From positions 1 through 10,350 of the forward strand of contig CAMNHX010000017.1 of the NCBI GenBank assembly GCA_946539945.1: DNA of 10,350 nucleotides, in the 5' to 3' direction. Below are positions 1 to 5,172 of the stretch, piece by piece. The DNA comes from an uncultured Desulfobulbus sp. GTDB lineage: Bacteria; Desulfobacterota; Desulfobulbia; Desulfobulbales; Desulfobulbaceae. Below the pieces are notes generated by a model. That model made no database searches, had not been told where the DNA came from, and saw only the letters and a program-made list of their open reading frames with translations. Made by a program: the position numbers and the translations under genes. Positions within the stretch are counted from its first letter, which is position 1. Every line of letters begins with the position of its first letter.

Positions 1-9
1 GGGGAATAT

Positions 10-103
10 GGGGTTGGTTCGCCACTGTAAAATTCCCCACTCTGGGGAATGTTCCCGCGAAAACCAAGCCTTGTTCCCTTGGGCAGCCTCGTTGAAGCAG
101 GAA
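10..103 (+). repeat. Structured repeat, copy 1 (tnpB 3' end / omegaRNA-like)
   Basis: This stretch aligns without gaps to 3931-4024 in the same orientation, 83 of 94 positions identical. It can fold as a long hairpin. An outer stem pairs TTGGTT-CGC (14-22) with GCG-AA-AACCAA (57-67, two-base bulge). An inner stem pairs ATTCCCC (32-38) with GGGGAAT (44-50) around a five-base loop. In one frame it reads GLVRHCKIP...ENQALFPWAASLKQE, resembling the variable tail of IS200/IS605-type TnpB proteins. After 103 it departs from copy 2 and has none of that copy's downstream hairpins or right-end motif, so this copy is truncated on its 3' side. Only nine bases precede it in the window, so its left edge cannot be judged. 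The repeat itself is seen directly; the omegaRNA relationship is inferred from copy 2. Confidence 0.75.
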
Positions 104-271
104 GCAAACAGCAAACCGATCACGTTTGGATAGATTTGATCAGGTTTGCGTAAGTTTTGCAGAACGGTACATGGTTCTCGTGAAACACCTCGCTCCTTAC
201 GAAAAAAATGGGCAGGGAAGCATATCGGATGAAGCCACACGATAACAAAAAAAGAGATCTTGAACAGGTTT
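104..271. other. Intergenic, AT-richer spacer
   Basis: No gene is supported here. It holds an 11-base direct repeat with one mismatch (GATCACGTTTG at 118-128, GATCAGGTTTG at 138-148), spaced 20 bases apart, which could be an operator-like pair. On the minus strand, downstream of the kinase stop codon, there is a run of seven T (complement of 247-253) preceded by only a weak four-base stem (TGAA/TTCA). This is at best a poor intrinsic terminator. Confidence 0.4.
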
Positions 272-2388: not shown

Positions 2389-3171
2389 ATGAATGCCGAC
2401 AAGAGTCGTATCAAACAGCGTTTTGCCCAGGCGCTCGCCAGCTACGAGGCCGCAGCACAGGTGCAGGCTGTGGTGGCTGATACGCTGCTGGACGAATTGG
2501 CTACCTGCCAGCCCGGTCTTGCTCCGGGCCGGGTTCTGGAAATCGGCTGTGCCAGCGGCGTGCTGACCGAAAAGATCGTGGCCCGCTATCCGCGCCTTGT
2601 TGAGCTTCTGGCCTGCGATCTGGTGGAAGACTGCGCTGCCTGTCTGAACACCCGGAGCGCTAACTGGCCTCTGAAACCCGGCTTTCTCGCAGGCGACATT
2701 GAAGAACTGGCCTTGCCGGGTTGCTTTGACCTTATTCTCTCCTCCTCCACCTTGCAATGGGTCCACGACCTGCCCGCGCTGGCAGCCAAGCTGGCTGACC
2801 ATCTGGAGCCAGGCGGACTTTTGGCTGTGTCTCTCTACGGCCCGGACAACTTTCTGGAAATCCGTACCCTGACAGGCAGGGGCTTGCCGTACCTGTCGCT
2901 TGCCGAACTACGGGCGCTTATGGCGCGGCATTTCCAGATTCTGGCGACCCGGGAAGACCGGGAACCGCTGTACTTCGCCAATCCTCTGGACCTGCTGCGC
3001 CATCTGCGGAACACAGGGGTCAACGCCTTGACGCCTCCCGGCTGGACCCGGGGCAAACTGGCCCGCTTTTGCGCCGAATATCAGAGCAACTTTGGCTCGG
3101 CAAAGGGCGTGCGCCTGACCTATCATCCTCTCTATCTTGTGGCCCGAAAAGCCGGGCAGGAGACACTATGA
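2389..3171 (+). CDS. bioC: Malonyl-[acyl-carrier protein] O-methyltransferase BioC
   Basis: A 260-residue SAM-dependent methyltransferase of the BioC family. BioC methylates the free carboxyl of malonyl-ACP so that fatty acid synthesis can build the pimeloyl moiety of biotin. Motif I is VLEIGCASGVLT (49-60), the ribose-binding acid is D77, GDIEEL is at 102-107 and FDLILSSSTLQW at 113-124. Family-specific signatures are LLRHLRNTGVNAL (202-213) and the C-terminal LTYHPLYLVARK (243-254). Length is normal. ATG 2389 is chosen; GTG 2383, two codons upstream, sits at better spacing (five bases) from AAAGG at 2373-2377 and could be the true start. The stop overlaps the bioD start as ATGA, so the two are translationally coupled. 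Confidence 0.9.
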   Translation: MNADKSRIKQRFAQALASYEAAAQVQAVVADTLLDELATCQPGLAPGRVLEIGCASGVLTEKIVARYPRLVELLACDLVEDCAACLNTRSANWPLKPGFLAGDIEELALPGCFDLILSSSTLQWVHDLPALAAKLADHLEPGGLLAVSLYGPDNFLEIRTLTGRGLPYLSLAELRALMARHFQILATREDREPLYFANPLDLLRHLRNTGVNALTPPGWTRGKLARFCAEYQSNFGSAKGVRLTYHPLYLVARKAGQETL

Positions 3172-3857
3172 GCGAACACCAGCACACCATTGCCGTGGGT
3201 GGCATTGACACGGGCGTGGGCAAATCCTTCTGCACCGGGCTTTTGGCCCGCCATCTGCTGCACCGCTTTGGTAGCGCCAGCACCCTCAAGCTGGTGCAGA
3301 CCGGCTGTACCGGCCTTGCCGAGGACATCCTGCTGCACCGCAAGCTGATGGGCATTCCGCCCACAGAAGAGGACACGACGCACTTGAGCAATCCCTATGT
3401 CTTCAAAATGCCTGCCTCACCCGCGCTTGCCGCCTCCCTGGAAGGACAGAGCGTTGAAGAGGCCAAGCTGGACGAGGCGGTCTGCGCCATGCAGGCCCGC
3501 GCTTCCTGGCTTTTGGTCGAGGGAGCGGGAGGGCTGCTGGTTCCGGTCAACGACAGCTTGCTCTTGCTGGACTACTTTGCCCGCCACAACTGGCCGCTCT
3601 TGCTGGTCACCAGTCCGCGTCTGGGGTCCATCAATCACACCCGCTTGAGCCTTGAGGCTGTGAAGAATCGGGGAATGCGGCTTTTGGGGCTTGCCTATAA
3701 CCTGTACGGCAACTTTGATGCGCTCATGGTGCGTGATACCTTGAAGGAATGCCGTCAGGCGCTCAAGGACTACGGCTTCCCGGAACAGATCGTCCTGGTG
3801 CCGGACATCCGGGAAAGCGAGTCCATAAACTGGGATCCACTCCTTGCCGGACTGTGA
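3168..3857 (+). CDS. bioD: Dethiobiotin synthetase BioD
   Basis: A 229-residue cytoplasmic ATP-dependent carboxylase that closes the ureido ring of 7,8-diaminopelargonic acid to give dethiobiotin. The P-loop is GIDTGVGKS (12-20; the family more often has GTDT..GKT), the conserved lysine is K41 in LKLVQTG, the VEGAGG motif is at 117-122 followed by PV, and RLGSINHTRLSLEAV spans 151-165. Length matches the family (about 225). AGGAG at 3158-3162 precedes the start, inside the end of bioC. The bioF, bioA and bioB genes are not in the window, so the pathway is completed elsewhere. No good terminator follows; the next feature is the omegaRNA-like element. Confidence 0.93.
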   Translation: MSEHQHTIAVGGIDTGVGKSFCTGLLARHLLHRFGSASTLKLVQTGCTGLAEDILLHRKLMGIPPTEEDTTHLSNPYVFKMPASPALAASLEGQSVEEAKLDEAVCAMQARASWLLVEGAGGLLVPVNDSLLLLDYFARHNWPLLLVTSPRLGSINHTRLSLEAVKNRGMRLLGLAYNLYGNFDALMVRDTLKECRQALKDYGFPEQIVLVPDIRESESINWDPLLAGL

Positions 3858-3930
3858 GGGTGGACCTGCGTTGGAACCTCGGTGTCTTGGGAGTTTGTGA
3901 GCAGATCCTCGAGAAGCCTTTGAGCGGTTG

Positions 3931-4105
3931 GGGGTTGGTTCGCAACCGTAAAATTCCCCACATTGGGGAATCTTGCGGCGAAAACCAAGCCTTTTTCCTC
4001 TGGGCAGTCTCGTTGAAGCAGGAACCCACCGAAGTGATTCAGGAGTGTTGTTTTGCTCCTGAACGCGGTAGGAATCCCCCGCCTAAAGGCGGGGAAGGAT
4101 GTCAA
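3931..4105 (+). mobile_element. IS200/IS605-type remnant: tnpB tail and right end
   Basis: The right-hand remnant of an IS200/IS605 (TnpB-type) element. A reading frame runs through it with the typical TnpB tail RKIPHIGESCGENQAFF...SLKQEPTE and continues to a stop at 4106-4108. The right end carries the hairpin CCCCGCC-TAAA-GGCGGGG (4077-4083/4088-4094) and finishes AAGGATGTCAA (4095-4105), the usual terminal arrangement of these elements just before the cleavage point. There is no left end, no TnpA and none of the TnpB catalytic core; bioD ends 73 bases upstream. It is therefore a decayed or internally deleted element, or a short non-autonomous derivative. The first 94 bases are repeated at 10-103. 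Confidence 0.75.
3931..4105 (+). ncRNA. Putative orphan omegaRNA scaffold (repeat copy 2)
   Basis: In TnpB systems the omegaRNA overlaps the 3' end of tnpB and runs to the right end of the element; bases just outside the element act as guide. Three foldable units are visible: the bulged hairpin 3935-3988 (outer stem TTGGTT-CGC with GCG-AA-AACCAA, inner ATTCCCC/GGGGAAT at 3953-3959/3965-3971); a perfect 8-base stem TTCAGGAG/CTCCTGAA (4038-4045/4056-4063); and the 7-base right-end stem 4077-4094. The first bases after the scaffold, TGATTCGGTTTTGGGC (4106-4121), would be the guide. The structure is seen, its role is known for the family, and expression here is unproven. No TnpB partner gene lies in the window. 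Confidence 0.6.
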
Positions 4106-4149
4106 TGATTCGGTTTTGGGCGATCTGTTCAGCGTTTCTTTAGCCGGCA

Positions 4150-5172
4150 TTATAGTAAATCCAGTCGCGCCAGCCTCTGCACCCGTTCCACAGAGGCAGC
4201 CAGCCGCTCCGCAGTGATGAGACCCTGGGTCAACAACTCTTCCAGAGCAGCCACGCCTTCGTCCAGCGCCCCGGGTTGGTCGGACAGGTTGTTACCCACC
4301 AGAAGCATATCCGCGCCTGCAAGGACCGCCATCTGTACAGCCTCGCGGAAACCGTACTCCTTGACAATTGCGCCCATTTGCAGATCATCAGTGCAGATAA
4401 CGCCGCGAAAACCCAACTTTTCACGTAGAAGACCAGTCAGAATGGGGGGCGACAGGGTCGCGGGCCGGGCCTCGGCGTCCAGCTGCCGCAAGACCAGGTG
4501 CGCGGTCATCACCGCGTCCTGAAAGCCCTTGGCAATCAGGTGGCGGTAGGGCGTCAGTTCGTCCTCCTGCCAACCTGGCCCAGCGTCCACAAAGCCCAAA
4601 TGCGTATCGCCCGCTGCCCGGCCATGTCCGGGAAAATGCTTGAGACAGCAGGCAATGCCGTGCGCGTGGAGCGTCCGGGTCCAGATCGCGGCATGGGCAG
4701 CCACTGCCTCTGCATCCATGCCAAAGCTCCGGCCAAAGCCGCCAATCACCGGGCAGGGCGGATCGCAGTCCAGATCCACCACTGGCGCAAAGTTCCAGTT
4801 GATCCCACATTCGGCCAGCGTGGCAGCGCAGCGTTCTGCTGCCGCCTGACTGGCCTGGAGTCCTTCAGCCGCCAGTTCCCGCGCTCCGGGCTGGACCGGA
4901 AAGCCGGCTGCCGCCTTCAAACGGCAGACCCGGCCCCCTTCCTGATCAATACCGATCAAAAGCCTGCCACCTGCCGCGTCCTGCAAGTCTGAAGTCAGAC
5001 GCTTGAGTTGCGCAGGCGAGCTGATGTTCTGTACCGACCCGTCCACGTTCTTGTCGAAGAGTATAACCCCGCCCAGGCCACGCCGAAGCGCAGCGGCAAG
5101 CCAGCCTCCGGGTTGCAGGCTTTCCCCGCGAAAACCCAGAAGAAAAAGCTGTGCCAGATGCAGGGTACTCAT
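4150..5172 (-). CDS. nagZ: Beta-N-acetylhexosaminidase NagZ (GH3)
   Basis: A 340-residue glycoside hydrolase family 3 enzyme without signal peptide, hence cytoplasmic. NagZ removes GlcNAc from GlcNAc-anhydroMurNAc peptides during peptidoglycan recycling. Motifs: IDQEGGRV (75-82), NFAPVVDLD (127-135), KHFPGHG (178-184) with GDTH (188-191) holding the His/Asp acid-base dyad, and TDDLQMGAI (261-269) with the nucleophile aspartate, probably D262. Length is normal for single-domain Gram-negative NagZ. The ATG has a strong GGAGG four bases upstream and overlaps the stop of the preceding gene (ATGA), so the two are coupled. The gene ends about 45 bases from the IS605-type right end. No clear terminator follows. 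Confidence 0.93.
   Translation of the reverse strand: MSTLHLAQLFLLGFRGESLQPGGWLAAALRRGLGGVILFDKNVDGSVQNISSPAQLKRLTSDLQDAAGGRLLIGIDQEGGRVCRLKAAAGFPVQPGARELAAEGLQASQAAAERCAATLAECGINWNFAPVVDLDCDPPCPVIGGFGRSFGMDAEAVAAHAAIWTRTLHAHGIACCLKHFPGHGRAAGDTHLGFVDAGPGWQEDELTPYRHLIAKGFQDAVMTAHLVLRQLDAEARPATLSPPILTGLLREKLGFRGVICTDDLQMGAIVKEYGFREAVQMAVLAGADMLLVGNNLSDQPGALDEGVAALEELLTQGLITAERLAASVERVQRLARLDLL

Follow-up and report, generated by a model that had tools for sequence, protein, structure and literature searches.

The two 94-nt repeats in the window, which is the whole 10,350-nt contig of an uncultured Desulfobulbus sp. (contig C17), are high-copy, non-autonomous PATE-type derivatives of an IS200/IS605 element that have lost tnpA and most of tnpB, a reading to which we assign a probability of roughly 85%. 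As originally described, the pair aligns without a gap at 88% identity, with 11 differences (positions 23, 26, 41, 42, 51, 54, 56, 73, 78, 79 and 87 in the numbering of copy 1), and the similarity is far above chance (E 1.5e-28). A count of only two repeats, however, was too low: a covariance model of the hairpin module, with 14 candidates scored, recovers at least 13 module copies in the same assembly.

Complete copies elsewhere in this genome consist of a left end, a remnant of the 3′ end of tnpB, the hairpin module (represented by the 94-nt repeat) and a right end; the corresponding features of the window are collected in Table 1. Internal deletions would have removed tnpA and most of tnpB, leaving the left end, the module-bearing scrap of tnpB and the right end. 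The shortened elements would then be mobilized in trans by a Y1 TnpA acting through single-stranded DNA hairpins, and the divergence between copies would be mostly decay after insertion.

Table 1. Features of the two repeat copies and their right ends in the window.
Feature	Positions	Strand	Basis or remark
Copy 1: hairpin module and type B right end, without its left end (contig edge)	1–167	+	
94-nt repeat, copy 1: hairpin module and KQE part of tnpB tail	10–103	+	
Type B right end, ending ..GTTTTGCAGAACGG	104–167	+	
16-nt flank of copy 1, putative guide if an omegaRNA is made	168–183	+	PMC8612924, in part
Copy 2: hairpin module and type A right end; left end not recognized	3931–4105	+	
94-nt repeat, copy 2	3931–4024	+	
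Third stem, 5′ arm CCGTAA, broken in copy 1	3946–3951	+	Predicted fold, family alignment
Third stem, 3′ arm TTGCGG	3973–3978	+	Predicted fold, family alignment
Stretch homologous to IS605 tnpB 3′ ends and right end	4011–4108	+	Plasmid matches
GCAGGAA, common to A-type and B-type tnpB 3′ ends	4018–4024	+	Similarity of the copies ends here
Right end A, outer stem and hairpin TTCAGGAG..CTCCTGAA; homologues show compensatory changes	4026–4072	+	Fold, covariation
GAAT, same letters as the IS608 right guide; directly before the terminal palindrome	4072–4075	+	Sequence; PMC5934647, in part
Right end A, terminal palindrome	4076–4095	+	Fold, covariation
TCAA, letters of the IS608 right cleavage site; element end	4102–4105	+	TCAA in 24 of 26 A ends; PMC5934647, in part
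16-nt flank of copy 2, putative guide if an omegaRNA is made	4106–4121	+	PMC8612924, in part

Element ends, deletions and copy number

The left end of complete copies carries a CGGGCTGCGCGGAAAG-palindrome. Its exact start, CGGGCTGCGCG, is found at seven loci, preceded by TTAC in five and by TGAC in two, and AAAG stands before the left palindrome in five of the seven (by eye). The left end is separated from the module by tnpB-tail DNA (VSACGE) with the sequence GTGTCAGCCTGTGGAGAG or a near variant of it. Two right ends follow the module. Type A has the layout ..GGAAT-palindrome-AGGATGTCAA, with a TCAA terminus and GAAT each present in 24 of 26 cases; type B ends in ACGG (18 of 19) and not in TCAA. 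These are the right ends of two tnpB groups in the same genome, whose 3′ ends finish in ..ACEVSGAVMPPAAGTHRSDSGVLSCS (A) and ..VSACGEEGTGPFREGRVKPASVKQEANSKPGQIEEI (B), and right end A matches the right end of a tnpB locus on contig C316. Both groups contain GCAGGAA directly ahead of their own right end. The 94-nt similarity stops at positions 103 and 4024 because copy 1 passes from GCAGGAA into right end B and copy 2 into right end A, from which we infer recombination or copying between two element types at GCAGGAA.

L003 and L008, which are complete copies, have a near-terminal palindrome at each end; the window shows right ends only. From left end to TCAA, L003 is about 325 nt long, and L008 measures about 175 nt; both are too short for a transposase gene. 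In L008 and L011 the left end is joined straight to right end A at GCCTTTTTCC. Since GCCTTTTTCC occurs twice in L012, in the left end and again where the module ends, deletion between short repeats would explain L008 and L011.

Copy 1 lacks its true left end because position 10 is close to the end of the contig, and upstream of copy 2 unrelated sequence takes the place of a left end. With no left end visible, each window copy could be a dead fragment, which counts against the PATE-type reading. Copy 2 stands directly downstream of a methyltransferase-domain gene followed by an AAA_26 gene (2389–3857, plus strand), which we take to be BioC/BioD-like genes of biotin synthesis. In a search for an empty site, the gene downstream of copy 2 was unmatched in 14 bioD loci of the same genus, covered to about 1.5 kb or less per side.

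A second left boundary, in which GACATTG follows TTGAT or TTGAC (L004, L015 and L027) or TGGAC (L079), is seen in loci on contigs C19 and C292 of the same assembly, and L077 has a similar word, TTGATGACATTGAGG, without the module. This boundary may represent a second left-end type. It recalls the ISDra2 target TTGAT|G (PMC5934647, in part) and fits poorly with a single left-end type, a further point against the preferred explanation; an intact element with such a left boundary was not found. A third tnpB group (L033, L039 and L040) has the tail GQNLASLGFLFRQSRGAVNRPNVAR and the end ..GGGCGGGGTTGTTTAC, and in L011 this end is fused to a type A left end. At L026 (contig C26, about 4280–4400), two opposite-facing tnpB-tail pieces lie head to head within about 120 nt.

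The elements are numerous in their own genome. Window 3925–4110 has at least 48 matches there (67 candidates, 40 scored), including the query itself and six end palindromes read backwards, and window 1–260 has at least 40 (57 candidates, 40 scored). Among the own-genome loci collected, without a word filter and mostly from searches scoring 40 candidates each, type A right ends occupy at least 26 distinct places and type B right ends at least 19. The downstream flanks differ in 26 of 26 type A ends and in all 18 type B places with flank sequence. A rival account, in which a 94-nt piece was recently duplicated within the locality and the changes fell by chance, would agree with the presence of just two copies within the window, but dozens of copies elsewhere in the genome, with fixed ends and different flanks, refute it.

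The assembly is 75% complete and comprises 406 contigs. Eight of these start or finish with an identical 53–55 nt of end B, which indicates that the assembly breaks on these repeats; an intact parent element may thus be hidden, which also weighs against the PATE-type reading. Near the end of contig C226, positions 3935–3988 are identical over 54 nt to window 2–55, an assembly break at the repeat. This contig may be the true upstream neighbor of copy 1, or it may hold another copy.

A single full-length Y1 TnpA (148 aa, contig C70) is encoded in the genome (PF01797, E 7e-43), and its relatives in the PDB include the ISHp608 transposase. A full-length TnpB frame was not found in the assembly, where the longest open frame is 222 aa, compared with 402 aa in Providencia. 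PF07282 gives 13 matches, eight of them above the cut-off, and PF01385 gives four, one above; all are in open frames of at most 222 aa, several at contig edges. The 222-aa frame, on contig C219, is without the middle part of the Providencia TnpB (by eye). A working TnpB may be encoded in the quarter of the genome that the assembly lacks, or may be split by contig breaks.

The covariance model of the module, run over 257 genomes of the order under strict filters with 14 candidates scored per genome listed, so that weak copies elsewhere may be missed, finds at least 13 places in the own genome and one marginal place elsewhere (G137, E 6.5e-4). A DNA search of 35 relatives gave matches in G002 only, four weak ones to the right end. 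The module is also found in three named MAGs: JAISOL010000055.1 (Deltaproteobacteria), JAISZT010000029.1 (Desulfovibrio sp.) and CALUZP010000028.1 (uncultured Desulfovibrionaceae). In the first and last of these it is accompanied by a left palindrome, VSACGE DNA, GCAGGAACCC, palindromes and a TGTCAA end; the Desulfovibrio copy has neither the left part nor the terminal TGTCAA. Visual inspection of the stretches read upstream in the three MAGs revealed no evident TnpB frame. The module therefore either predates this genome or has passed from one genome to another.

Structure in right end A and in the hairpin module

The original prediction of an omegaRNA-like RNA is right in that the copies derive from the 3′ end of tnpB beside an IS605 right end, where reRNA/omegaRNA is encoded: the homologous stretch of copy 2 (Table 1; query 87–184) matches the 3′ ends of TnpB and transposase genes on enterobacterial plasmids. 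A plasmid search with window 3925–4110 returned 1315 records with partial matches (847 from Klebsiella, 217 from Escherichia and 178 from Salmonella), none of which covers 80% of the query. The best 20 of the 1315 extend from query position 74–89 to 181–186; TnpB or transposase is the annotation of most (four carry no feature and one is a recombinase). In a Providencia plasmid record, the match comprises the last 44 nt of the gene for a 402-aa TnpB and the end that follows it, with tnpA alongside. Six phage records match only query 85–181 or 87–119, and the viral contigs gave no confirmed match. Right end B, used as query against plasmids, found one weak TnpB match, in Acidiphilium.

In ISDra2, the tnpB 3′ end and right end give rise to an RNA of about 150 nt, the last 16 nt or so of which come from the flank (PMC8612924, in part). 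Because the ISDra2 RNA comes from the corresponding DNA, right end A keeps an omegaRNA-type scaffold: copy 2 retains the type A version of the omegaRNA-encoding DNA and copy 1 its type B counterpart. Judged from sequence, it is possible that the copies still make guide RNA.

The clearer compensatory pairing is outside the 94-nt repeat, in right end A (4026–4095). Among 16 rows (nine from the own genome, three from G002, two from MAGs and two from plasmids), which remain of 21 after removal of five similar own-genome rows, the covariation is 0.225 against 0.161 in shuffled alignments, and none of 500 shuffles reaches 0.225. There are 17 doubly changed cells against 3–11 with a slid partner, the structure being copy 2's own fold and hence favored against the slid controls. 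Both partners are changed in 5 of the 16 pairs that make up the two helices ahead of the terminal palindrome. Less striking are the 8 doubly changed pairs (34 of 500 shuffles) and the 27 pair types (85 of 500). The 21 rows were picked by the pattern G(G/A)AATC plus TCAA, so the covariation test is uninformative on GAAT and TCAA themselves. In this family of elements the terminal palindrome is also read by TnpA as single-stranded DNA (PMC5934647, in part); consequently, covariation there is evidence for structure and not for RNA alone.

The hairpin module gives a more mixed picture. All seven differences in its hairpin half had been assigned to loops or unpaired segments, and indeed none falls in the two stems drawn in the original prediction, which make up 34 of 61 nt (hypergeometric P 0.002, for stems chosen after looking at the differences). 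Differences 26, 54 and 56, however, fall in a third stem, CCGTAA/TTGCGG, which is part of the minimum-energy fold of copy 2 and absent from that of copy 1. When this stem is included P goes up to 0.07, so that the placement in loops depends on which stems are drawn. Its six pairs are retained in 12 to 17 of 18 alignment rows; L027 has C-G in place of A-T at one of the six. Taken alone, the 94-nt repeat folds with z −1.67 in copy 1 (9 of 200 shuffles equal or better) and z −2.58 in copy 2 (3 of 200); with their right ends, the copies reach z −3.27 and z −4.10, respectively.

Covariation over the 94 nt, the check suggested at the outset, is not higher than in shuffles with 12 rows and shows a modest excess with 18. 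The larger alignment has 7 doubly changed pairs against 3.5 shuffled (11 of 500 shuffles) and 27 pair types against 21.8 (4 of 500), with 4–6 doubly changed pairs in slid controls; it was fitted to the model and leans towards structure. Its rows are 15 own-genome copies and three from other MAGs, to the exclusion of partial copies (L005, L010, L045–L048 and L079) and of weak or rearranged ones (L026, L053 and L054). Fewest-changes counts on a FastTree tree of these 18 copies are 1.63 per paired column (62 columns) and 1.67 per unpaired column (15 columns), with no rate difference (permutation P 0.41). Over the whole structure, then, stems change as often as loops. The two stems originally drawn are slower, with 1.12 changes per column (34 columns) against 1.96 in the rest of the hairpin half (24 columns; P 0.015), although for 14 of their 17 pairs at least one of the 18 copies has lost the pairing. 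The claim that the repeats diverge as structured RNA is accordingly borne out in part: the outcome named as refuting it is seen for the structure as a whole and not for these two stems. The slower change in the two stems is unlike pure decay and to that extent counts against the PATE-type reading.

By eye, the hairpin module is missing from the readable tnpB tails at 13 own-genome loci (among them L035, which breaks off, and L043, which does not resemble TnpB) as well as from the TnpB tail of Providencia, and it therefore seems to lie outside the standard omegaRNA scaffold. An Rfam scan of the window found nothing overlapping either 94-nt repeat; its sole, sub-threshold match (E 0.44) is at 155–203 on the minus strand. 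The left arm follows the right arm more closely in a variant module found in L014, L016 and L013, with a perfect 13-nt complement between CTGGTTTTCGCCG and CGGCGAAAACCAG in L014 (fold z −8.36) and a similar, imperfect one in L016 and L013.

Coding signal and alternative explanations

The codon count of the original prediction is reproduced: in the ..GENQAFFLWAVSLKQE (KQE) frame nine codons are altered, none synonymously. In a simple simulation this outcome has a probability of 0.126 by chance (12.6% of trials), so the lack of synonymous changes is weak evidence. For eight ungapped copies of the 18-row alignment, pN/pS of the module is 0.74, 0.81 and 0.85 in the three frames, with no frame favored. 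The pattern had been called opposite to coding constraint; constraint is indeed absent, but this is expected of non-coding remnants and is not specific to RNA.

These values bear on an alternative that we consider improbable, namely that the copies are truncated tnpB genes of an intact TnpB family absent from the assembly, whose coding tail would be the module. In its favor, the KQE frame stays open in many copies and in L002 and L019 is joined to a VSACGE-like tail, and five metagenomic frames of 65–109 aa carry the tail, in a search limited by length such that a full-length TnpB was beyond its range. Yet no frame is protected, and the VSACGE frame differs from the KQE frame in L003, L095 and L097. 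Furthermore, the tail profile, searched over 257 genomes of the order, finds at least 23 places, all in the own genome (101 candidates there, 23 scored), and four long frames read from its matches contain no TnpB body by eye. A different proposal, compatible with the PATE-type reading and unlikely rather than implausible, is that the copies are living omegaRNA donors: they would make a tnpB-less reRNA with their own flank as guide, to be loaded by a TnpB encoded elsewhere, and the module would be an additional RNA domain maintained by selection. The covariation of right end A, including the two helices before the terminal palindrome, argues for it, as do the folding of both copies with their right ends, the occurrence of the module in three other genomes and the slower change of the two stems originally drawn. 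Against it stand the search of the own assembly, which found no full-length TnpB frame, the use of the terminal palindrome as DNA by TnpA, which makes covariation there not specific to RNA, and the equal change of paired and unpaired module columns overall.

The PATE-type reading has precedents. Like the PATEs of Haloquadratum walsbyi, the complete copies leave no room for a transposase gene and have ends related to an IS605-type transposon, and deletions between short repeats have been described for PATEs (PMC3119063, in part). The present elements differ in being bacterial, in keeping a tnpB 3′ end and a further hairpin module and, for the window copies, in having no visible left end. In Halanaerobium hydrogeniformans, a PATE-like element combines a left end of 28 nt, the last 58 nt of tnpB and the whole 160-nt right end; right ends of two types also occur in that genome, as do tnpB inserts that bear hairpins (PMC7290912, in part). 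One such element is present there, whereas here there are dozens of copies, and a single module is followed by either of two right ends. IS608 of Helicobacter pylori carries TTAC (CL), TCAA (CR), AAAG (GL) and GAAT (GR), together with tnpA and tnpB (PMC5934647, in part). Complete type A copies contain all four words, but neither gene; type B right ends are without such words. The DNA corresponding to the ISDra2 reRNA (PMC8612924, in part) is kept in copy 2, with the difference that an extra hairpin module lies upstream and there is no tnpB in cis. The open-licence papers searched contain PATE precedents, but none of them names this family, and neither the combination of one module with two right ends nor the module as such was seen in them.

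The 94-nt repeat is thus explained without a new class of RNA, and the covarying pairing is located within such elements. A bolder view, which we regard as doubtful, is that the tnpB-less swarm constitutes dispersed orphan guide-RNA genes, whose type A and type B right ends with their differing flanks would serve one or two TnpB nucleases in trans, with the module as a new RNA or DNA domain by which gutted elements could compete for TnpB or TnpA. With dozens of copies, two right ends and deletions between short repeats, this genome offers a natural set in which to ask whether tnpB-less elements guide TnpB in trans.
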